From NCBI GenBank assembly GCA_037783545.1, contig JBBELK010000490.1, positions 930,001 through 994,000 on the forward strand: DNA of 64,000 nucleotides, read 5' to 3'. A model generated the notes under the pieces. That model was not told where the DNA came from. It was given only the letters and a program-made list of their open reading frames with translations, and did not search any database. Shown in pieces: positions 23,140 through 63,182 of the stretch. This DNA is from Henricia sp. BOLD:AAB3569. Taxonomy: Eukaryota; Echinodermata; Asteroidea; Spinulosida; Echinasteridae. Position 1 is the first letter of the stretch, and the number at the start of each line of letters is the position of its first letter. A program made the translations under genes and the position numbers.

Positions 23140-25699
23140 TGTTAACCTGTGGAATTACTTATCTTGTTTTTAGTAGACTGGACCTTGGGTGTTCCTTTAT
23201 CCTTGTATTGGCCAATATTTATTTAAACTATGGGCAGACATTTTAAAAAACTCTTTTGCTTTTTGTGCCTTAATTTGGCAATTCAAAACCTGTTTAGTTA
23301 ACTTGCATTTCCTTTTTTACAAATCCATTCCATTATGTCTGCTATTTTTCTGTCTGTGTTTTCCATGATTGACAAAAACAAAACATGTGGGCTTGAACAT
23401 TTATAAAAATGTTTCTTGGTCACATGATTTTGATAAGATATACAGGAAAGAATTGTAGTGAACCATGGTCCGTTTCACTCCCTGTGTACAAAACATGTGA
23501 GACTGACTAGTGAAAAGTTGTTTATTTTTCTTAGAGAAATATTTCCTTTTAAATTTGTGTCTGCATACACTAATGATTAACAAGTCCTTTTACTGGAAAA
23601 ATGCTTAATACCGATTTGCATACGTGCAGTGTACGTGTACAGTTAAACTTTAATAAGAGCACTGTTAATACAACATTTTGCTAATAAAACATGGACATCT
23701 AGGTCCCAAATGCATTCTTGTCATTGTTTTCATCCCAATTTAGACTTCTGCTATATAACAAGGTATCTTGCAAAATTGCAAGGACTTCTTATTAACGAGG
23801 TTTGATTGTACATGTACATACATGTCCAAGACTTTTCCCATGAATAAACTAGATGTACCAACCAATTACAAATAAATTAGTTGTAATTTAGAAACACCTG
23901 AGGAACAATGTTTTTTCCATTTTTTTTCGTGGTCACCTTTAACGATATCTGTTAAAAGTTTTATTTAATTTTGACAGCAATAATTGTACAATTTAATGAA
24001 TTTATTTCAATGTTAAATTGAAATCTTTCCTGCTGGATATTTGCATTATATTGTCAATTTTAAAATAACCATGTTCCCTAAGCTGTGTATTCTGGTGTAT
24101 GGTTATAGAAAGTCTATTTGGTTGGAGTATCATAACCAGTGTGAGAATGAGATATTGGCAAATAAGCTCAAATAACTACATTGCAAAGAAGACTTTGAGA
24201 AAGTTAAATGTATGTACATACATGGAAACAAACCTTTTATTAAGTTTAGACTTTATTATAAATAGTACAGTTTTTCTTCACCTCCTTTTGACAAACTGTA
24301 CCTTTAATAAGCTTCTTTATATTTATATGTTTAACTTTGTGAACCTTTTCCCGAGCAATTAACATCAGTAATCACCAGATGTAGTCAATTAAAAACGATC
24401 CAGAATAAAATGGGTGAGGTACTTTCATTTTCATTCGAAATTGTTTTAATTTTGGTAATGCACCTTTAATTGCAAATATCTACAAAACTGCAAGTTTAGG
24501 AAACCCCCAACAAGTAAATTCGGATTCCCCGTGCCCAAATCTATAAAAATCAATCGCATTTAATTAATTCTCAGAGGTGTGCCACCAAAATCATTTTCTG
24601 AGCAAGATAATCGGGAACATACATGTATCCTCGCCTAGTAGGAGAAGCAAAACAATCGCATGTGTGCGGTCGCCATAAAGCGGTTGATCTATTGACCAGT
24701 CGTCAAAGTCGGTAATTCTGCTGATTTTGTCTGCAATGGTATTGCAAGAACGAGGAATCCATTCTGGTAAAAGAACAATGTTGTGCTTTAGACAAAGGGA
24801 GAAGATCGACAAAGATAACGTGTACACGTGCAAATCGGGCTTGCCACTGCCATGTAAGAGTATGCGTGGTACGCTGATATTATCCGTGTACCATCTAATT
24901 TTTTGATGGGACAATTCGTCTCGAAGTTCAGTGAGTACTTTGAAAATAGCACCCATTTCGCGCCATGTAGAACTGCGCGACGATTCGAATTCTGACCAGA
25001 CACCGTTGACTTTTAACTGCTCAAAATCGGCCACGTAACCGCAATAACCGACATCGCTTGCGTCCGAATAAACCGCACGGTTGGGAATATGTTGATGTTT
25101 AATAGAAAATCCGTTGAGATTCTCGAAATTCGATTGCCAAAACTTGAGTTATGTTACGACATCGTCCGTTAAAAGTATTAAGTCGTCCCATGAAAACCTT
25201 GTTTGGATCGTACGATACATGACTCGGGTCATTAGTCGGGTAACGGGTCCGAGAGCGAGGGACATGGAGATCAATTGACCAGTGACTTTTGCGAGAGTTC
25301 TAGCGCTTGTTGGTTGTAATTGTGCGTGGTCGGATAATAACTCATGAATTGAGGCGTTGAGCTTTGTGATCTTAGCCGTAGGGACCGAGAACGTCAGAAA
25401 GTGCGAGATCAAAACGAGGCCCAAGTACGTAATAGATCTATTAGGCTGTCAAACGCATTTCGTTTTGCTAGGAACGAAACCACTACGGATAAGTGAATCT
25501 TTCACGATGGACGAGTTACGTAGAGCGGAAGGTAGATCGGGGGAAATGACTAACCCGTCATCAATGTACACAAAGCACGAAATGCCTTGAGCGCGCCATG
25601 AATAGACGAGTGGTGTAGTGATCTTTGTGATTAAACCATTCTTGTGACGTCACACTATTGTTCAAACTATAGATTATTTTCACGAATCGACAGTTTACT

Positions 25700-53800: not shown

Positions 53801-53804
53801 TTGA
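53801..53804. repeat. Target-site duplication TTGA, left
   Basis: TTGA immediately before the left LTR, matching 63,179-63,182 immediately after the right LTR. A 4-bp duplication is within the range seen for Ty3-type integrases. Confidence 0.85.
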
Positions 53805-53904
53805 TGTAGTGGTAACCTCCCGCGATAATACGGTGTGAGGTGAGGTCCAGTCACAAAATTAATTGGGACGGCTTGTGTTAATTTCACCACAATGCAGGAA
53901 TCAT

Positions 53905-53910
53905 TTTATT
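53905..53910 (-). terminator. AATAAA polyadenylation signal in the 3' LTR
   Basis: AATAAA on the minus strand, 74 bases downstream of the TATA box and about 100 bases before the LTR end. This is the spacing expected for a short R region and a ~90-base U5. The 5' LTR copy is at 62,295-62,300. Confidence 0.6.
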
Positions 53911-53998
53911 TCCTCACTGATCCAGCAAATCAATCACAGGAATCAACAATCAATTACTCCCGATGACGATTGTAATTATTTATAATCCATTATCACAA

Positions 53999-54060
53999 TC
54001 AGATCAGATCCTCTAGATCCCTTTAGATCCTTTAAATCCCTTAGATCCTTTAAATCCCTG
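53999..54060 (-). promoter_or_regulatory. Decamer repeats upstream of the LTR TATA box
   Basis: About six degenerate copies of a 10-bp unit, GGATTTAAAG / GGATCTAAAG on the minus strand, end roughly 15 bases before the TATA box. Tandem short repeats in U3 often act as enhancers, so this is a candidate enhancer. The same array is at 62,389-62,450 in the 5' LTR, where it would drive transcription. Confidence 0.5.
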
Positions 54061-54788
54061 GATGGAGTAGGATAGGAGCACTTATAAGCCTCCGAGCAGA
54101 AAGCTTTATCTGAAAGAAAAGCCAAAACAGTAAAACACAAGGTCAGCAAATGCAATGCAAGAAACACATGTACCGGTAATTGTATATCCACTATGCACAA
54201 CGCGCATTCAGTGCGTGTGTGTACTGTCTGGCCTGCAAAGTACACGGGGCAGAGGTCAACAATTTCCCCACGACAGTTGCTAACTTGAGCGTGCATGACA
54301 ACGGCATGAGCGCGAAAGTTTCAGCGACAAAACGGCCCAACAAACTCGACTTTATGTGCGTGAAATGTCAAAATTACACTCACCACATGTTCTGTAGTTG
54401 TTCTCCCCAAGTTCTAAAGATGAACCATGGTTATGAGCCTGGCAAATAATGCAAAATAAAGGGGAAAACTTCCTCTCTTTCTGCAGAGGTTCACTCAAAC
54501 AGTCGGAGAAAACGGGAAAAGAACTCGCATCCCGCGCTCTCATGTCATGTCCAAACTGTTTACAGATGTTCGCATATCATGTCACTTACGGATCACTGCG
54601 CGACGGGACAAATGTTTTGCTGAACTGCGTTATAAAACAATGTACGCCACACGCACTATTTCCACTGCGGAAGGATCTGACCTTATGGTACTGTCTATAG
54701 CATGACCTTTTTGCATATATTAGGCAGTCTATAAATAATATTGTTGTTAAAGGGACAGGGCCATCGTTAAAGGGACCGTACCCTCACA

Positions 54789-54801
54789 ATTTCCCTGCTT
54801 T
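54789..54801 (-). other. Polypurine tract
   Basis: AAAGCAGGGAAAT on the minus strand directly abuts the TGTGAGGG start of the 3' LTR. Purine-rich with one C. In LTR elements this RNA segment resists RNase H and primes plus-strand DNA synthesis. Confidence 0.6.
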
Positions 54802-55296
54802 GAGACCAATCGCCCCGAGTGGTCCTACACCATCCAAGGAAACAATAATTAACATTACTAATTTCCAAACAAAATTTACACACTAACGTTAAACATCAAA
54901 AATTACGCATAGGTACATATCACACTAAGTACCAGATCTCAATCCCTCGCCGAGAAAACAAGTGTAAAACATTACCTGGGATCACATCAGTGATGTTTTT
55001 GTCTTTACGTCACTATTATTGTACTCTATAATCAGGTACCAAAAACATAGGCAGAGCAAATCTGCTACTCTGAACAAATGGAGACAAAATTGTCTTAGCA
55101 CCAATCTCATATCCAACTTGGAATGGAATGGTATGTGTTATCACAACGATAATTCTATTACCTGTATATGTACAAGCTACAGTTTCTCAAAAACAATCAG
55201 CACTTCTAAAATTTGGAAAATCCTCCTCAATGCACATCTTACATAATACTTTTTAAAAGTTCTATACTGTAGGATATATTGCAATCAAGGTCATTG
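54802..55296 (-). other. 3' untranslated region of the LTR element
   Basis: Between the SGNH stop and the polypurine tract. No conserved coding frame on either strand; only short chance ORFs. It belongs to the element, since it lies inside the LTRs. Confidence 0.6.
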
Positions 55297-55893
55297 TTAG
55301 GCATGCAAACATTGCAACACCGCCTCTTTCAGCCCTTTTCCATACTTTATCATACCATCACTTGTCAAATGAACTCCGTCCAAAAGACATCTTGGGTGGT
55401 TAATCTTTCTCTGAGCATACAGATACATTTGTGGGTGGTTCTTTAAAGTCTTACCAAGAGCAGAATTATATCTTCTTACTCTGTGGTTGAATGTGACCAA
55501 CCCTACCTGTCCTGGTCGCGATAACCTAGAGCGCTCAATCACTGAGAGTAGGATAATACAACGAGGAGTAATTCCCTCATTCTTAAGTTCGCTCACAAAT
55601 TGTAAGGTGTTCTCAACCAAAACTGCGGGTGTGACGTCTTCGTCACACAAATCGTTTGTTCCTATGTCTAAGATCAAAATGTCAATAGGTTTTCTTTTTA
55701 ATTTTCGAAGGAAAAACTCTAAATTTGAAAACAGGCGAGCATAACTCAATCCGGGGTGGCCCTCCACAGACAGAGTGCACTTTCCAGACAAGTCGACGAA
55801 ATCGAGCACAGACTTACGGTTGGTCTGCGCCTCTCTGGAAAGACGTGATACAAAGGAATGGCCATACAAAAATACATGAGGCAATTCTGTCAT
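55297..55893 (-). CDS. SGNH/GDSL-type hydrolase, third ORF of the LTR element
   Basis: An intact 198-codon frame from ATG to stop. It shows all SGNH blocks in order: FLYGHSF with the nucleophile candidate Ser13 (GHS in place of the classical GDS), HPGLSY with Gly48, DIGTND with Asn80, and DGVHL with Asp172 and His175. Family members are serine esterases, lipases or acetylhydrolases with a single alpha/beta domain of about 200 residues, so this is full length. There is no obvious signal peptide. It occupies the place of env, in the same frame as pol but after its stop and 360 bases. Expression would need splicing, an internal start or reinitiation; none is proven. SGNH domains are known in CR1/L2 LINE ORF1 and in some DIRS/Ngaro elements, but are not a standard Ty3 component. 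The substrate is unknown. Confidence 0.85.
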   Translation of the reverse strand: MTELPHVFLYGHSFVSRLSREAQTNRKSVLDFVDLSGKCTLSVEGHPGLSYARLFSNLEFFLRKLKRKPIDILILDIGTNDLCDEDVTPAVLVENTLQFVSELKNEGITPRCIILLSVIERSRLSRPGQVGLVTFNHRVRRYNSALGKTLKNHPQMYLYAQRKINHPRCLLDGVHLTSDGMIKYGKGLKEAVLQCLHA

Positions 55894-56253
55894 ACAGGCA
55901 GTTTATAACAAGGGATATTCAACTCTTAGAACACGTGACAAAGCTTTAAACTTCTGAAAAACTATTTCAACAACATATTTTGTTCATAAAACTAGCTCCT
56001 GGCTTATGAAAGCTCTTTCAAACGCTTAGTTATTTACATTACATGTACCAAAAGATGGTATATAGTGCTAATGGAGTTGGTCCAGTCACAGAGGAGGTAT
56101 ACACCACGGCCTGTGTCATGATTATGACACAGATAGCCTCCGCCCTGGGCCTCAACCACAAACACTCATTGGACGATGCACGCCTACGGTAGATTCTGTG
56201 AGCTATTACCATGCACCAACCTACTACCATAGTGGATGCAAATATTGACTAAT
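55894..56253 (-). other. Gap between pol and the SGNH ORF
   Basis: 360 bases with no conserved frame. TATAAA lies only nine bases before the SGNH ATG (55,902-55,907), too close to act as an ordinary TATA box for that start. A splice acceptor here is possible but none stands out. Confidence 0.5.
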
Positions 56254-59200
56254 CTAGGTGATTCCGTTAGGCCACTGGCCACGGCGTTTATTACGGAGTC
56301 GCTTAGACCTCCTCAACGCTGGCGTTTTCTGAGCGTGGCCCTCGCATCCATCATTGTCATGCACTGACTTAGGGTCATGCGGACTAATGCCATCTGGGAC
56401 AGTGGTAAGTGGATGGCTTTGCTTCTGGGACGGTACAGAAACAATAATGTCCTCGGAGCTATCCGATTCCACTTCTGTCTCAGAGTCAGAGTCACTCGAT
56501 GGAGGAACAGTAGGTCGAGGATTAACTTGCCCTGGTAGCTCACCTCGGGGATCCAAGATAAGCATTTTTCGGTTAAGCCACTTTATAGGACCTCCAACCG
56601 CCAGTCTCACTCCATATACATCACCGTCAGTGTTCCGCTTCACCACTACATGCTGTTCTGTGCCAAAAGTGTCACTTAATTTATGCCGTTCAGAGAAGTG
56701 GCAATGCCGTAACAGCACTCTAGCACCCACTGGTAATACACTGGCAAACGCACGCTTGTCATATTGTCGTCTGTTTCTTTCAGCAGACCTGATAATACGA
56801 TCTTGAGCAATCCTATGAGCCCTACGAAGATATTTTGCTTGCTGCTGGACAGCGTCCTCACTCCAGTCATGTTGGGTGTTACTGATCAAGTGGTCCATCG
56901 GGATAGATGGCTCCCTACCAAACATTAGTGCATATGGGGTATACCCGGTGACACTGTGGGGGGTAGAGTTGTACACAAAAACTAAGTGAGGAAGCAACTT
57001 TGGCCAATTTTTGCGGTTCTCGAGTTCAATGGATTTGATAAGCCCACAGAGCGTTTTGTTAAACCTCTCTGTTTGCCCGTTGCCTTGAGGGTGATAGGGT
57101 GATGTTCGAGTTTTCCTAACCCCGTATAGCTCACAAAGCTCTCGCACAAGATGACTCTCGAAGTTTCTTCCTTGATCCGAGTGGATCTGGGAAGGCAGAC
57201 CATAGTGGACAAACCAATGGTCATGTAACGCCTGAGCCACTACCCTTGCCGTTTGGTTTTTGCAGGGGACGGCCATGGCGAATTTGGTAAAGGCATCGGT
57301 CATGACTAACACTTCCTCGATGCCACCGCAACCAGGGTCAAGTTTCAAAAAATCAATGGCTAAGCGTTCTAATGGCTTGAAGGCCAAAGGGTGCCTCATT
57401 GGTGCTCGAATAGCCGGAGTTGGGGTCTTGGCCACCGTACACTGAAAGCATTGACTTATATGCTTCCTAACCTGGGAATTCATGCTTAACCAAAAACATC
57501 GGTGCTTTATAAGAGCAAGCGTCCTCCCAACTCCCTGATGACCCCACTGGTCATGCGCGGCCCTGACAATATCGGCTTGGAGTTGCTTTGGGACAAGCAA
57601 TTGGTGTGTTTGGTCACCATCTGGGTCTCCCTGGACCCTATACAAGACTCCATCATGCTCCCTGAAGGTTGACCACTCTCTCAACCACGACTTGACCTCT
57701 GGTATGCTTTGGTCGCAATGCGGGTCACCTTGGCTGGAATCCCACTTCTGCTCCCATAGACTCCATATCTCCCCCAAGGCATCGTCTGCCTTTTGTAAGA
57801 CTGCCAACTCGACATGGGAATATGAGGGTAGGAGCGAACTGGCCACAACTGGCTGATCTGTCCCCATCCCAACTTCTTGAAACGGCATGATTACCATTGG
57901 TTCAGACGACTGTAAGTTAGGCGTCAAGGGGGTACACTGCGCAATGGACAGCAAAATGTCTGCTGTTTCAGATACATTTAACTCAGGTGGGTTGCGGCTT
58001 AGCGCATCCGCACACCTGTTGGAACGACCAGACCTGTATTTTATTGTAAGATCAAAGGCTGCAAGCTGGGCAACCCAGCGCTGTTCGGTGGCTCCGAGCT
58101 TTGCGTTCTGAAGATGCGCGAGAGGGTTATTGTCTGTCCAAACCGTAGTGTGCCGGCCTAGTAAATACTCTCTGAATTTTTCGGCAACTGCCCACTTTAA
58201 GGCTAACAACTCTAGCTTAAAGCTAGACAAATCAGAGTAACCTCTTTCCGCACCTCTCAGTCCGCGGCTGGCAAAAGCCACAGGGTGCAGGTTGCCTTCG
58301 TCATCGTACTGTGAAAGGCATGCTCCTAAGCCTTTTAAGGAAGCGTCTACTTCGACCACGAAGTCCCGATCGAAATTTGGGTATGCTAGCACTGGTGTGC
58401 TACACAGTGTTTGCTTTAGCTCAGAGAATGCTTGATCTGCCTCAGGTGTCCATGGTAATAGGCCTCTCGACTTCCCTGCTTTTAATCTAGCTTTGCCGAC
58501 CAGCGAATGCAGTGGCGCAGAAATCTTGGCAAACCCCTTGACATAACGTCTGTAATAAGATGCCAGACCTAAGAATGATCTGAGCTTCTCCATAGTAGTG
58601 GGGACAGGCCAATTCTTGATGTGTTCGACTTTCCCAGGGTCCACAGACACTCCTTCTGCACCTACAATGTGACCTAGGTGTGACACTGACTTCCTAAATA
58701 ACTGGCACTTAGAGCCATTTAGCTTCAACCCGTGATGCTCTAGCCGGTCAAACACCTTGTCAAGTCTGTTGAGGTGTTCTTCCACAGATGGGGAAAACAC
58801 AAGCAAATCATCCAGATATAGAACAAGTTCGGAAAGATTCATATCCGCAAAGATGGATTCCATTATGCGCTGGAATGTACTGGGGCTGTTTGTCAAACCT
58901 TGAGGAAGTCGTAAAAATTCATACAAACCCCATGGCACTCTGAAAGCCGTTTGGGGGATGGAATCTGGGTGAACTGCTACTTGAAAGTAGCCATGAGCAA
59001 GATCTAATGAGGAGAACCATTGGGAACTCCCCACAGACTCCAAAGTCTCCTCTATTCTCGGGAGGGGAAATGCATCTCTCTGAGTCTTTGCATTAAGGCA
59101 CCTGTAATCTATACAAAGGCGTAACTGACCGTTTTTCTTCCTCACTAGCACTACCGGACTAGCGTAGGGACTGGTAGACCTTTGAATGACGTTGCGGTCC

Positions 59201-60519
59201 AATAGGTCCTGCAACAATTTCTTGACTTCGGTGACCTGGCTAGGGATAACACGCCGGTATGGTAGATTTACAGGCTTATCGTCCGACAGCTTAATTTCGT
59301 GAGGGATCAAATCGCAATATCCCAGGTCAAACGGACTCATGGAAAATGCCTTTTCATGTTTCTGTATGAGGCGAACAGCTAACTCGGCATATGTGTCTAA
59401 TAATTCACCCATTTCGACCCCTGGAGGGAGCAAATATGTTGTACCATCTGAAAAAGTGAACAACTGTCTTGGTTCGCTGGTACAAACTTCAACTGCACTA
59501 CGGCATTCCCGTAGTGTCTCGTCAGGCTCCTCAGCTTGCCCGTCAATAAGAATTTGGTGAATAGACACTTCAAATTTGCCATCACTGGAATTTACCAGTA
59601 CTTGTTCTGTCACCTCGACCTCTACTGCTTCGGCTATTTTAGCGAAAGCGGGTATAACTAAAGGCTCAGTGCTAGTGTTTGCCACTAAGACTGGAAAACA
59701 GTCCGCAATTCCTTGTACGTCATGAACAGCGTCTAGGACCTGGTAACTATCTGGTGATCTCTCATCAACAATGTTTGAGGTATTCGGACAGGGCTGTACC
59801 ACCACTGATTTACCCCCGATTTCTGAATCGGACTTGGTAATTAGGTGACCATGCAGGGTACCAACTGACTCTGCAGGTACGATTGTGTGCTCACGCACTT
59901 CAACGTCATAAACTGTAGCACATTTTTCGGATGAACTTTCGTGTTCAGGATCGGTATCTTCCGTGCTCACTGAACTGAACCACTGCAATGCCAGCTTTAA
60001 GTCTTCGCATTCATGCACTGACCCTAATTGCTTGAGCTTCGTGTACAACACGCGTAGCACATTACAACCCAGCAGCACTGGATACTTTTCGCTGTTGGCT
60101 TTTTTTGCTGTGTCGCTTAATATCAAGAAACTCGCAATAAATTTCTGCCCATATATCTCAACTGGTGCCTCCAAATACCCATCTACTGGCACTGCAAGTC
60201 CATTGGCACCTACAAGTTTTACAAACCCGCCGACATCATCAAGTCCACCTAGCTTTTTCGCCAAATTCTCGCGATAAAATTTTGCGGATATTAGTGACGT
60301 GACCGCCCCGGTGTCTAATACGCATTGGGCATGGGCCCCCGCAATGAGTATGCTTGCCGTAGGACTATTAGCGAGTAACCGATTTTTGTCGGCGGCGGAA
60401 ATTATTCTGTTTACAGGTTCATGCACATTTTTAGAAAAATCAAATTGTTGCTGGTTTGCGGGCTCATGCTTCGCCTCCGGCACAGTGCCCCTTATGACGG
60501 AGGCACTGCATTTCCCAAC
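56254..60519 (-). CDS. pol: Pol polyprotein: protease, RT, RNase H, integrase
   Basis: The frame opens after a TGA at 60,520-60,522. The first in-frame alternative start is a GTG at 60,483, so translation should come by -1 frameshift from gag. Numbering from that GTG: protease CVLDTGA with Asp57; reverse transcriptase about 405-660 with YLDD at 556-559 (typical of Ty3/Gypsy); RNase H about 705-830 with Asp713, Glu758 and Asp784; integrase zinc finger His977, His982, Cys1012, Cys1015; integrase core Asp1044, Asp1103, Glu1139 with the exact D-35-E spacing. A GPI-K-W-L-N-R-K segment near 1,298-1,306 stands where GPY/F modules occur. No chromodomain is seen. The C-terminus is an acidic serine-rich stretch then a basic tail. 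About 1,420 codons without a stop; every key residue is present. Confidence 0.95.
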   Translation of the reverse strand, partial: VGKCSASVIRGTVPEAKHEPANQQQFDFSKNVHEPVNRIISAADKNRLLANSPTASILIAGAHAQCVLDTGAVTSLISAKFYRENLAKKLGGLDDVGGFVKLVGANGLAVPVDGYLEAPVEIYGQKFIASFLILSDTAKKANSEKYPVLLGCNVLRVLYTKLKQLGSVHECEDLKLALQWFSSVSTEDTDPEHESSSEKCATVYDVEVREHTIVPAESVGTLHGHLITKSDSEIGGKSVVVQPCPNTSNIVDERSPDSYQVLDAVHDVQGIADCFPVLVANTSTEPLVIPAFAKIAEAVEVEVTEQVLVNSSDGKFEVSIHQILIDGQAEEPDETLRECRSAVEVCTSEPRQLFTFSDGTTYLLPPGVEMGELLDTYAELAVRLIQKHEKAFSMSPFDLGYCDLIPHEIKLSDDKPVNLPYRRVIPSQVTEVKKLLQDLLDRNVIQRSTSPYASPVVLVRKKNGQLRLCIDYRCLNAKTQRDAFPLPRIEETLESVGSSQWFSSLDLAHGYFQVAVHPDSIPQTAFRVPWGLYEFLRLPQGLTNSPSTFQRIMESIFADMNLSELVLYLDDLLVFSPSVEEHLNRLDKVFDRLEHHGLKLNGSKCQLFRKSVSHLGHIVGAEGVSVDPGKVEHIKNWPVPTTMEKLRSFLGLASYYRRYVKGFAKISAPLHSLVGKARLKAGKSRGLLPWTPEADQAFSELKQTLCSTPVLAYPNFDRDFVVEVDASLKGLGACLSQYDDEGNLHPVAFASRGLRGAERGYSDLSSFKLELLALKWAVAEKFREYLLGRHTTVWTDNNPLAHLQNAKLGATEQRWVAQLAAFDLTIKYRSGRSNRCADALSRNPPELNVSETADILLSIAQCTPLTPNLQSSEPMVIMPFQEVGMGTDQPVVASSLLPSYSHVELAVLQKADDALGEIWSLWEQKWDSSQGDPHCDQSIPEVKSWLREWSTFREHDGVLYRVQGDPDGDQTHQLLVPKQLQADIVRAAHDQWGHQGVGRTLALIKHRCFWLSMNSQVRKHISQCFQCTVAKTPTPAIRAPMRHPLAFKPLERLAIDFLKLDPGCGGIEEVLVMTDAFTKFAMAVPCKNQTARVVAQALHDHWFVHYGLPSQIHSDQGRNFESHLVRELCELYGVRKTRTSPYHPQGNGQTERFNKTLCGLIKSIELENRKNWPKLLPHLVFVYNSTPHSVTGYTPYALMFGREPSIPMDHLISNTQHDWSEDAVQQQAKYLRRAHRIAQDRIIRSAERNRRQYDKRAFASVLPVGARVLLRHCHFSERHKLSDTFGTEQHVVVKRNTDGDVYGVRLAVGGPIKWLNRKMLILDPRGELPGQVNPRPTVPPSSDSDSETEVESDSSEDIIVSVPSQKQSHPLTTVPDGISPHDPKSVHDNDGCEGHAQKTPALRRSKRLRNKRRGQWPNGIT
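60473..60516 (-). promoter_or_regulatory. -1 ribosomal frameshift signal between gag and pol
   Basis: On the minus strand GGGAAAT (60,516-60,510) is read in the gag frame as G GGA AAT, a canonical X XXY YYZ slippery heptamer. Slipping back one base enters exactly the open pol frame. Five bases downstream GCCTCCG (60,504-60,498) can pair perfectly with CGGAGGC (60,479-60,473). A competing 7-bp stem, CAGTGCC with GGCACTG (60,508-60,502 with 60,489-60,483), could compete or contribute to a pseudoknot. The gag stop TAA (60,494-60,492) lies in the loop region. Confidence 0.8.
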
Positions 60520-61553
60520 TCATTAGCATGAGTGGGTTGCGACTTCTCATTGCCTCGATTGTTTTCATTGACAAATTTGCGCTTGAAACAGTTTTCTATT
60601 GAGTGTCCCAACTTTTTGCAAAATGAACACTTTATCGTGGGCCTACGCGGAGTCGCATTGCCTCTCGGCACAACCTCGGTCAATTGCAGAAGTTTCTCAT
60701 TGGTCACTTTCTGTTGCTGTAAAAATTCACACTGTTGCTGCATCATCGTGGCCTGCTGTTCAACAAGTTTGTCCAATGTAGCCGTCAGGGCTTTTTGACT
60801 GCCTAAAAGCTCTTTCACCACTGAGTCATCACAAGAGGCTTTTCTAACGCCTTGCTCTAGTGAATCCACAACACTAAGTGTGGACTCACCGGTGACTTTG
60901 TGTGCATGATCCGTGTCCCGGAGCAGCTCAAGGGCAAGACCCCTCAACTCGAAAAATGTTGACTTGGGATGATCCACGACGAGCCGTCGCAATTCCCTGC
61001 GGACAGCAATGTCCTTCACACCACGCACAAATTGCTCCTTGAGGGCGCCCTCTCGGAGTTGACTCAAGGCAACTTGGTCTTTTTGATTGGCTGCCGCCTC
61101 CATACGGTCATAAAGCCGCATTATTGCCCGGCTAAATTCAGCCAAGGTTTCACCCTCCTGCTGCTCCCGGCCATAGAACATGCAATTTAAGGCTGGCACT
61201 GTTTCGACTGGCCCAAAGCGAGAATGCAGCAACTTTTTCAATTTGATAAAATCACCCCTATCTTTTTTAGGACAACAGAGAATTTCTTCACGGGCATCAC
61301 CCGTGAGGTGGTCTAAGGCTACACTGACTTTTTCTTCTTCGGATAAACTCAGTTGCCTAGCATAGCTTTCTAAGTCTTCAAGCCAATCCTTTAAGGTAGG
61401 GTCAGTTGACTTACGAGCAGGGCCAGAGAATTTACTAAGCCTAACTGTTGGTGCTCTCTGGACCCTTAAATTAGATAAAGCGCCGGCCAATGTTTCTGCT
61501 AGTGCCTGATTTGACTTGGCAATTAAATCAGCCACAGCTTCAGGAGATGCCAT
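60492..61553 (-). CDS. gag: Gag capsid/nucleocapsid protein
   Basis: The start chosen is the ATG at 61,553 in ACCATGG context, a strong animal start; the frame is open two codons further but only through a TTG. 353 residues. The central part (about 40-215) has the helical capsid pattern of Ty3-type and PNMA/ZCCHC12-like Gag, with KFSG, DWLEDLESYARQL, a LTGDAREEI segment and GETLAEFSRAI. A glutamine-rich coiled-coil-prone stretch lies at about 255-290. A single CCHC zinc knuckle, CSFCKKLGHSIENC (Cys309, Cys312, His317, Cys322), binds RNA. The protein assembles the particle and packages the RNA. It ends with a TAA overlapping the pol frame by 28 bases. Confidence 0.92.
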   Translation of the reverse strand: MASPEAVADLIAKSNQALAETLAGALSNLRVQRAPTVRLSKFSGPARKSTDPTLKDWLEDLESYARQLSLSEEEKVSVALDHLTGDAREEILCCPKKDRGDFIKLKKLLHSRFGPVETVPALNCMFYGREQQEGETLAEFSRAIMRLYDRMEAAANQKDQVALSQLREGALKEQFVRGVKDIAVRRELRRLVVDHPKSTFFELRGLALELLRDTDHAHKVTGESTLSVVDSLEQGVRKASCDDSVVKELLGSQKALTATLDKLVEQQATMMQQQCEFLQQQKVTNEKLLQLTEVVPRGNATPRRPTIKCSFCKKLGHSIENCFKRKFVNENNRGNEKSQPTHANELGNAVPPS

Positions 61554-62171
61554 GGTCAAAATTGGTCACACTCAACCACAGGTAAATACCATGGCCCTTT
61601 AAATCACAACATTGGGGCTTTAAGAAAAGGTCACGATTAAACTAGGCCTATCTCTTTAAATGTTAAATGCTAAGACATACTTAGTACCTCAAGGACTTAA
61701 TACATAGTACTTAATATATAGGCCTAAGTTAAAAGTTTATAAAACAATAAATGTCATCTTGAAGTAAAACACCTCAGGCCGAGCAAAAGTAAAGGCCAGA
61801 GTAACGACTTGCCAAAAAATGCACAAGTTGAATATAGCTACGGAAAATCGTAGCTTAAATTGTCAATGGCCAAAGGATATTATATTCCTGTTTGTGCTCA
61901 TCCTGTCAGCATGGCAGGCGTGTCCAGCAGCCACCGCAGTCTGAAGGCATTCCGCTGTTTATAGTCCAGTTTATAAAAAGTCACTCGCACTCGTAGCTTT
62001 AATGTCTTTTTTTGCAATCTTGCGTATGTTTGTGGATATGCTGGTCCATTTATGCTTGGCACACAAGCTGAAAAATGTCACTGCATCCAGGGATCATTTC
62101 CAGTTCCAGGCATGACTTGCGGATCTCAACTGAAGTCAAGTTGGTGAAGAAAATTGAAGAACACAATACCA
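61554..62171 (-). other. 5' leader of the LTR element
   Basis: Untranslated stretch between the PBS and the gag ATG, about 0.6 kb. It would contain packaging signals, but none can be pinpointed by eye. Several short upstream AUGs are present. Confidence 0.6.
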
Positions 62172-62189
62172 ATCCCATCCTCGTCGCCA
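62172..62189 (-). other. Primer-binding site, tRNA-Ser type
   Basis: Minus strand TGGCGACGAGGATGGGAT starts five bases after the 5' LTR end. It is complementary to the 3' end of animal tRNA-Ser(GCT)-type molecules (…ATCCTCGTCGCCA or close variants), which would prime minus-strand DNA synthesis. The isoacceptor call is from general knowledge of animal tRNAs. Confidence 0.75.
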
Positions 62190-62194
62190 TTTTC

Positions 62195-63178
62195 TGTAGT
62201 GGTAACCTCCCGCGATAATACGGTGTGAGGTGAGGTCCAGTCACAAAATTAATTGGGACGGCTTGTGTTAATTTCACCACAATGCAGGAATCATTTTATT
62301 TCCTCACTGATCCAGCAAATCAATCACAGGAATCAACAATCAATTACTCCCGATGACGATTGTAATTATTTATAATCCATTATCACAATCAGATCAGATC
62401 CTCTAGATCCCTTTAGATCCTTTAAATCCCTTAGATCCTTTAAATCCCTGGATGGAGTAGGATAGGAGCACTTATAAGCCTCCGAGCAGAAAGCTTTATC
62501 TGAAAGAAAAGCCAAAACAGTAAAACACAAGGTCAGCAAATGCAATGCAAGAAACACATGTACCGGTAATTGTATATCCACTATGCACAACGCGCATTCA
62601 GTGCGTGTGTGTACTGTCTGGCCTGCAAAGTACACGGGGCAGAGGTCAACAATTTCCCCACGACAGTTGCTAACTTGAGCGTGCATGACAACGGCATGAG
62701 CGCGAAAGTTTCAGCGACAAAACGGCCCAACAAACTCGACTTTATGTGCGTGAAATGTCAAAATTACACTCACCACATGTTCTGTAGTTGTTCTCCCCAA
62801 GTTCTAAAGATGAACCATGGTTATGAGCCTGGCAAATAATGCAAAATAAAGGGGAAAACTTCCTCTCTTTCTGCAGAGGTTCACTCAAACAGTCGGAGAA
62901 AACGGGAAAAGAACTCGCATCCCGCGCTCTCATGTCATGTCCAAACTGTTTACAGATGTTCGCATATCATGTCACTTACGGATCACTGCGCGACGGGACA
63001 AATGTTTTGCTGAACTGCGTTATAAAACAATGTACGCCACACGCACTATTTCCACTGCGGAAGGATCTGACCTTATGGTACTGTCTATAGCATGACCTTT
63101 TTGCATATATTAGGCAGTCTATAAATAATATTGTTGTTAAAGGGACAGGGCCATCGTTAAAGGGACCGTACCCTCACA
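62195..63178 (-). repeat. 5' LTR (984 bp)
   Basis: Same sequence as 53,805-54,788, by eye without a difference. It holds the promoter used for the element's RNA: decamer repeats at 62,389-62,450, TATA at 62,374, and a downstream AATAAA. TG...CA ends. Confidence 0.95.
62366..62374 (-). promoter_or_regulatory. LTR TATA box
   Basis: TATAAATAA on the minus strand, about 15 bases after the decamer array. Transcription would begin around 62,340, giving a short R region before the AATAAA at 62,295-62,300. The 3' LTR copy is at 53,976-53,984. Confidence 0.55.
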
Positions 63179-63182
63179 TTGA
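63179..63182. repeat. Target-site duplication TTGA, right
   Basis: TTGA directly after the 5' LTR on the plus strand, the partner of 53,801-53,804. Confidence 0.85.

Follow-up and report, generated by a model that had tools for sequence, protein, structure and literature searches.

SGNH/GDSL hydrolases have been described in several kinds of retroelement. In the bdelloid rotifer Vesta1 and related long terminal repeat (LTR) retrotransposons, a GDSL esterase/lipase is encoded by a third open reading frame (ORF3) downstream of pol, and sharing of such genes between retroelement classes has been suggested (Rodriguez, Kenefick and Arkhipova 2017, PMC5408684). Ngaro-type tyrosine recombinase (YR) retrotransposons of Xenopus have an SGNH ORF after the recombinase (PMC9210276), and ZfL2-1, an ORF1 protein of the type found in CR1/L2/RTEX long interspersed nuclear elements (LINEs), binds acidic phospholipids and hydrolyses p-nitrophenyl acetate (Schneider 2013, PMC3905857). 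Here we analyse a window of 64,000 nucleotides from the sea star Henricia sp. (contig JBBELK010000490.1, positions 930,001 to 994,000), in which a Ty3/Gypsy element carries an SGNH hydrolase gene, here also called ORF3, of 198 codons plus stop (55297-55893, minus strand) between pol and the 3' LTR.

This gene looks like a part of the element, in an old and still recently mobile lineage, and not like a chance capture. As in Vesta1, the element is an LTR retrotransposon with an SGNH/GDSL ORF3 past pol that keeps its catalytic residues and with no envelope gene at that place. The rotifer GDSL clones are 1.3 kb long, as described, compared with 0.6 kb here, and a dUTPase is encoded by three of the four rotifer lineages, whereas a Pfam search found none in the pol of the window. 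The SGNH fold, intact catalytic residues, retroelement setting and plausible lipid role are shared with ZfL2-1, whose domain, unlike the stand-alone ORF3, sits behind a coiled coil in ORF1 and carries a His191-Ser228 pair. Ngaro-type elements likewise have their SGNH as a separate ORF behind the last pol-like gene, but with a YR in place of the integrase found here, and the Ngaro-type SGNH belongs to another group with a GDS motif.

Since an SGNH/GDSL ORF3 past pol was reported from rotifers in 2017, the novelty implied by the initial annotation of this window was overstated. Among the titles and passages of the open-licence literature searched, we found no SGNH gene in Ty3-type elements beyond the rotifer work and its reviews. 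The present analysis adds another genome, an old and recently mobile lineage of many families, evidence for purifying selection, a family lacking the gene and a type of enzyme that differs from those of LINE-like and YR elements.

ORF3 along one reverse transcriptase lineage

We searched the genome to which the window belongs (740,731,340 bases, 2,104 contigs) and obtained 136 SGNH matches, some containing stops; eight, including the window's own, are 97-100% identical. For joining the gene to reverse transcriptase (RT), we used the best 150 of 2394 RT candidates and 119 of the 136 SGNH matches, omitting further pieces of the same places. Within this set, SGNH lies downstream of 72 of the 85 RT matches with at least 60% identity to the window's RT and of none of the 65 below that value. 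By tier of RT identity, the gene is present in 8/8 at 94% or more, 45/53 at 65-84%, 19/24 at 60-64% and 0/65 under 60%, with an offset of 3.0-3.4 kb in 59 of 73; 48 of the 119 SGNH places have no RT within 7 kb among these best 150. A Pfam-derived SGNH list adds a single neighbour to the 65 low-identity RTs, an upstream SGNH that belongs to an adjacent element (C1083). Four outgroups read directly (L053-L056, RT 53-57%) have no SGNH in about 2.9-3.6 kb past pol. Because the link between SGNH and RT is sharp at 60% identity and above, absent below it and missing from the outgroups, the gene marks one RT lineage, and the proposal that it belongs to the element instead of being a one-copy capture stands. 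Capture of a host gene by a single copy is ruled out by the 136 genome matches and the co-location of SGNH and RT.

Reading individual stretches gives the same layout. Seven sister copies (L001-L007) run from gag to SGNH in the window's order and are bounded by LTR-like repeats that are 98.6-100% identical; in some of them (L006, L007) pol is broken. Among 13 more distant stretches (L008-L020, SGNH 49-58%), ten have gag, protease, RT, RNase H, integrase and SGNH in order; L017 shows RT to SGNH, L019 RNase H to SGNH, and L016 has SGNH with integrase pieces on the opposite strand alone. LTR-like repeats 97.2-100% identical flank these ten; L019 has tandem repeats only, and no repeats of this kind were seen in L016 or L017. 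Six stretches with SGNH at 43-47% identity have integrase ahead of SGNH in five cases, the sixth, L025, having none within 2.4 kb upstream. In the tier at 32-35%, L027-L029 still keep the order RT (62%), RNase H, integrase and SGNH, and in L030 and L031 SGNH alone was seen.

Some of these stretches have features of their own. L025 (C130:1160400-1164900) contains an intact 200-amino-acid SGNH frame and no other frame of at least 100 amino acids on the same strand in 4.5 kb. L015 (C412:1064700-1074600) holds two SGNH copies on the same strand, separated by 8.1 kb, in a tandem-like arrangement. The open SGNH frame of L031 (C585:58200-64200) has Ile at the catalytic serine and adjoins a long array of repeats of about 61 bp. 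Stand-alone SGNH frames occur at L030 (C737), C217, C245 and C303, of 203 amino acids in three and 185 at C303; no RT was recognised in the 6 kb read around L030.

Whether every copy of the lineage has the ORF, as the initial annotation asked, is answered only in part: the seven sisters and many families do, but one family does not. Three RT matches (62%) lie in pol frames of 1405 amino acids with no SGNH (C162, C195:1635021 and C2027:15708); none of them has a listed SGNH within 9 kb, and L052 (C162:310000-316000) has none in the 2.75 kb past pol. Ten further RT matches, in frames of 213-897 amino acids, bring to 13 of 85 those at 60% or more without a listed SGNH downstream; the Pfam-derived list adds neighbours for two of the 13, at offsets of +7278 and -4622. 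The gene is thus not strictly essential to the lineage: given the L052 family, it is dispensable in at least one family, or supplied in trans. We read this family as a natural loss or replacement of the SGNH gene. The contrast of many gene-bearing families with the one that lacks the gene, and with outgroups in which none was seen, makes a natural comparison, through which the effect of the gene on spread is open to study.

Constraint on ORF3 and its inheritance with pol

We read SGNH at 52 places, picked from the best matches and hence biased towards intact copies, and found it open over at least 150 amino acids in 50 (30/32 and 20/20). L007 and L022 are broken, and L010 and L019 are open over that length but have an early stop near the C-terminus. 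The 49 sequences retained form 22 clusters at 85% identity, one of which is L030, outside the lineage; the alignments exclude the two broken frames and L032, which a motif filter removed for having DHS in place of GHS, the serine being kept.

Ratios of non-synonymous to synonymous change (dN/dS) were taken from lineage pairs with a synonymous difference above 0.04 and below saturation, most between-cluster pairs being saturated. The ratio falls below 1 in all six informative pairs, as expected for a working gene in the initial annotation, at 0.10 (P = 0.0024), 0.43 (P = 0.12), 0.25 (P = 0.014), 0.43 (P = 0.089), 0.30 (P = 0.00019) and 0.34 (P = 0.00053), but two of these (P = 0.12 and 0.089) are non-significant and some pairs share a member. 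L025 compared with L024 gives 0.34. Very close pairs range from 0.36 to 2.34 and are uninformative, the two values above 2 both involving L019, which has GQS for GHS. When neutral change of the window frame was simulated in 2000 runs, 8 remained free of stops at 0.3 substitutions per site and none did at 0.75. Purifying selection on ORF3, where measurable, is strongly indicated by these sequence comparisons; the intragenomic variation of the rotifer ORF3 is described as mostly neutral (PMC5408684), whereas the divergent pairs here have dN/dS below 1.

The same data bear on the idea that ORF3 is a passenger, a host gene that only this copy or family took up and that is now in neutral decay. The persistence of one family without the gene and the stops in some of the 136 matches would suit it, but the sharp link to one RT lineage, the many SGNH clusters, the purifying selection and the near-invariant catalytic residues contradict it, and we regard it as very improbable.

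Integrase and SGNH distances across 13 loci correlate with r = 0.93 (0 of 10000 permutations as high) and, without the three deepest loci, with r = 0.55 (2 of 10000). Mean identity between families is 42% for SGNH and 63% for integrase. One locus departs from the correlation: by SGNH, L010 (C548) stands beside the window family and L008, and by integrase it groups with L020-L026. In approximately unbiased (AU) tests of groupings selected after the trees were seen, the SGNH and integrase data each reject the other's placement of L010 (P = 1.25e-6 and 0.0235; a third grouping, 0.0087). This conflict suggests some swapping of SGNH between families of the lineage. Inheritance of the gene with pol, with some reshuffling between families, is thus strongly indicated, and because SGNH lies downstream of pol throughout one RT lineage, a single acquisition before the lineage radiated is the best account.

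The enzyme and its relatives

All four catalytic blocks of an SGNH hydrolase are present in the window protein (S13, G45/G48, G78-x-N80-D81 and D172-x-x-H175), and among 48 rows of the lineage, near-copies included, 47 retain the Ser and all 48 have the Gly, Asn, Asp and His. The predicted structure makes the entire 198-residue chain one confident SGNH domain. Its neighbours among 50 listed entries include catalytic subunits of platelet-activating factor (PAF) acetylhydrolase and bacterial lysophospholipase/arylesterase types, cellular enzymes to which identity is 11-21%, and sialate O-acetylesterases, thioesterases and carbohydrate O-acetylesterases are also among the predicted-fold matches. 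By Pfam, the window protein scores 25.7 bits where the SGNH/GDSL cut-off is 32.9 and 23.3 where it is 23.6, and some other copies of the lineage score above a curated cut-off. An NCBIfam search with the SGNH protein gave no match, and a profile search of solved structures gave two bacterial GDSL proteins only. Matches to designed pentatricopeptide repeat proteins in a sequence search of solved structures were discarded, as no stretch passes alone.

The same genome holds other SGNH-bearing elements. L057 (C540) and L058 (C109) are of YR type, with RNase H, a tyrosine recombinase and then a terminal SGNH ORF of 189-194 amino acids (domains read by eye); frames of these lengths recur several times in the Pfam-derived genome list. 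Four further SGNH frames (L061-L064) group with them, the recombinase having been read only in L057 and L058. At L059 and L060 (C981, C133), SGNH sits in frames of 625 (three places) and 652-673 amino acids (five places), which are probably LINE ORF1. One fold is thus found in at least two kinds of retroelement of one genome, Ty3 and YR-type and probably also LINEs, and since it ended up in more than one kind, a shared need, perhaps at membranes, may lie behind it.

Exchange of the gene between retroelement classes, as the initial annotation proposed, would derive the Ty3 esterase from an ancestral genome's element of LINE or Ngaro type. The co-occurrence just described favours it, as does the sharing proposed for rotifers (PMC5408684). 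In our tree, however, the Ty3 rows, five metagenome proteins and four other frames (including L030; RT not found or not read) lie on one side of a 100/98 branch, and the six YR-type rows (98/91) and the LINE-like rows (99/95) form separate groups. A profile search returned 187 proteins at E ≤ 1e-3, of which 120 are listed and 50 entered a wider tree of 70 rows. There, 26 closer proteins group with the window's families (99/98), and 24 further ones of similar length, which start with GHSF, include uncharacterised proteins from the clams Mercenaria and Ruditapes. The Ty3 rows group with these GHSF-type proteins, as does L030, and the YR and LINE-like rows lie across a 98/97 branch. When Ty3, YR and LINE-like rows are constrained together, the tree is not rejected by the AU test (P = 0.293, or 0.332 without the LINE-like rows).

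A single site also separates the groups. The residue that matches His191 of ZfL2-1, four places ahead of the catalytic Asn, is Asp in 48/48 Ty3-lineage and 5/5 metagenome rows, His in 6/6 YR-type and 2/2 LINE-like rows, and mostly Asp or Glu in the 24 further proteins. His191 and Ser228 of ZfL2-1 are reported as transposon-specific, forming a bond across the two half-domains, and changing both blocks activity (PMC3905857). A Ser lies near the Ser228 column in 43/48 Ty3-lineage rows, one column off that of most LINE-like and YR-type rows, which may be a matter of alignment; the Ty3-lineage esterases thus do not have the His191-Ser228 pair of a transposon-type esterase.

Taken together, the separate groups and the Asp/His difference disfavour a transfer out of this genome's LINE or Ngaro-type elements and leave the proposed exchange unsupported, with the AU values leaving room at depth; we hold it to be unlikely. 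The Ty3 esterase is probably an acquisition separate from that of the LINE ORF1 esterase, and the Asp/His difference, which sets the Ty3 enzyme apart from LINE and Ngaro-type ones, offers a handle for biochemistry.

For the metagenome relatives P0012, P0018, P0020, P0025 and P0033, the longest contigs are 8.0-8.9 kb, about one element long. A scan of viral contigs with the family alignment yielded 41 pattern matches and no relative by tblastn; the 50 matches listed among predicted viral structures are mostly from phages, with two from giant viruses, at 11-19% identity, and nothing specific.

Layout of the element and possible roles of ORF3

Besides ORF3, we recognise the following features in and around the element.

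53805-63178, minus strand: whole Ty3-type LTR element, 9,374 bp (LTR boundaries, domain order, seven sister copies)
62195-63178, minus strand: 5' LTR, 984 bp, TG...CA, with 984/984 bases the same as 53805-54788
53805-54788, minus strand: 3' LTR, 984 bp (LTR comparison)
53801-53804 and 63179-63182, no strand: target site duplication TTGA on either side of the element (sequence)
62171-62189, minus strand: candidate for the primer binding site, TGGCGACGAGGATGGGATT, which follows the 5' LTR at a distance of 5 nt
60492-61565, minus strand: gag open frame, 357 amino acids, CCHC-like motif near the C-terminus (read by eye)
56254-60519, minus strand: pol open frame, 1421 amino acids, with protease, RT, RNase H, integrase zinc finger and core (Pfam)
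55954-55961, minus strand: weak splice-acceptor-like TTTTTCAG, whose end is 60 nt ahead of the start codon of ORF3
54789-54801, minus strand: polypurine-like tract AAAGCAGGGAAAT before the 3' LTR (labelled by position)

The order of gag and a protease-RT-RNase H-integrase pol between LTRs, the TG...CA ends, the short target duplication and the primer binding site candidate, which we take to fit the 3' end of a serine tRNA, are those of Ty3/Gypsy elements. The integrase core (rve) matches at E = 1.1e-13 and the protease weakly at 0.043; gag matches PNMA (E = 3.1e-5) and Retrotrans_gag (E = 5.7e-4) weakly, both under cut-off. The gag and pol frames overlap by 28 nt in different frames, and the plus strand over 55297-55893 has no open frame. 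With 0 differences in 984 LTR positions, the 95% upper bound on insertion age is 0.15-0.76 million years if rates per site per year of 1e-8 to 2e-9 are assumed. The description of an intact 198-codon SGNH gene that occupies the env position in a young Ty3 element is confirmed.

On balance we favour the view that ORF3 is the third gene of an old, recently mobile Ty3/Gypsy lineage and encodes a soluble accessory esterase acting on esters, likely those of membrane lipids. Because ORF3 starts 360 nt past the pol stop, it would be made from spliced or re-initiated RNA. The product would be soluble, about 22 kDa in size, with Ser13-His175-Asp172 as its triad and Gly48/Asn80 as its oxyanion hole. By analogy of fold and with ZfL2-1, it may hydrolyse acyl or acetyl esters, those of membrane lipids being the most likely substrates. 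It could thereby help particles to assemble on, traffic along or leave membranes, in the manner of the lipid-binding esterase found in some LINE ORF1 proteins.

Beside the families without the gene, the sampling of SGNH places and the non-significant or uninformative dN/dS pairs given above, several features of the upstream region weigh against this view. Of 13 upstream regions, 12 contain an acceptor-like site where shuffles predict 7.3, a mild enrichment, and 51% of shuffles of the stretch upstream of the window's ORF3 hold one too. A Met stands 3-10 residues before the GHS block in 47 of 49 frames (exactly 10 in 34), but L018 and L029 have none ahead of the core, although close relatives do; their starts may be lost or lie on an upstream exon. 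In L010, the L011 group and L029, the frame stays open upstream with hydrophobic residues, and some families may have a longer, spliced N-terminus.

These upstream stretches bear on the idea that the esterase stands in for an envelope, being exported or particle-borne and opening or modifying membranes or surface glycans for exit or entry. They would fit it, as would the env position of the gene and the sialate O-acetylesterases among its predicted-fold neighbours, and membrane penetration by GDSL ORFs was raised in the rotifer study (PMC5408684) and in a 2019 review of giant transposons (PMC6431247). The open stretches of L010 and the L011 group, however, contain no Met of their own, the Met close before GHS is near-universal and the whole chain is one SGNH domain; the window protein has no membrane-strength stretch, and no membrane-anchored surface glycoprotein of an env-bearing element was recognised in ORF3, in both cases without use of a transmembrane or signal-peptide predictor. 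The rotifer study argues likewise for its GDSL ORFs, although it grants an env-like function as a formal possibility (PMC5408684). We consider this role doubtful; ORF3 is probably not an envelope fusion protein, because the core begins soon after its start codon and it has no evident membrane segment.

A less probable but possible alternative to the membrane-lipid esterase is an enzyme for editing ester or thioester marks, whether these sit on protein, sugar or RNA of the host or a virus, thereby blunting host defence or maturing the particle with no membrane link. SGNH enzymes include thioesterases and carbohydrate O-acetylesterases, some of each matched by our model, and the greater divergence of SGNH than of integrase would fit an arms race or weak constraint. 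Faster change is, however, common in accessory genes, and there is no direct evidence in favour of such editing. We mention as a long shot that an animal-wide Ty3 lineage swapped its envelope for an independently acquired, catalytically distinct esterase (Asp, no His latch), whose ester chemistry would release, move or spread particles.

Elsewhere in the window, an open frame at 24591-25148 on the minus strand, which has no Pfam match, resembles by eye a remnant of a DIRS/Ngaro-type RNase H.
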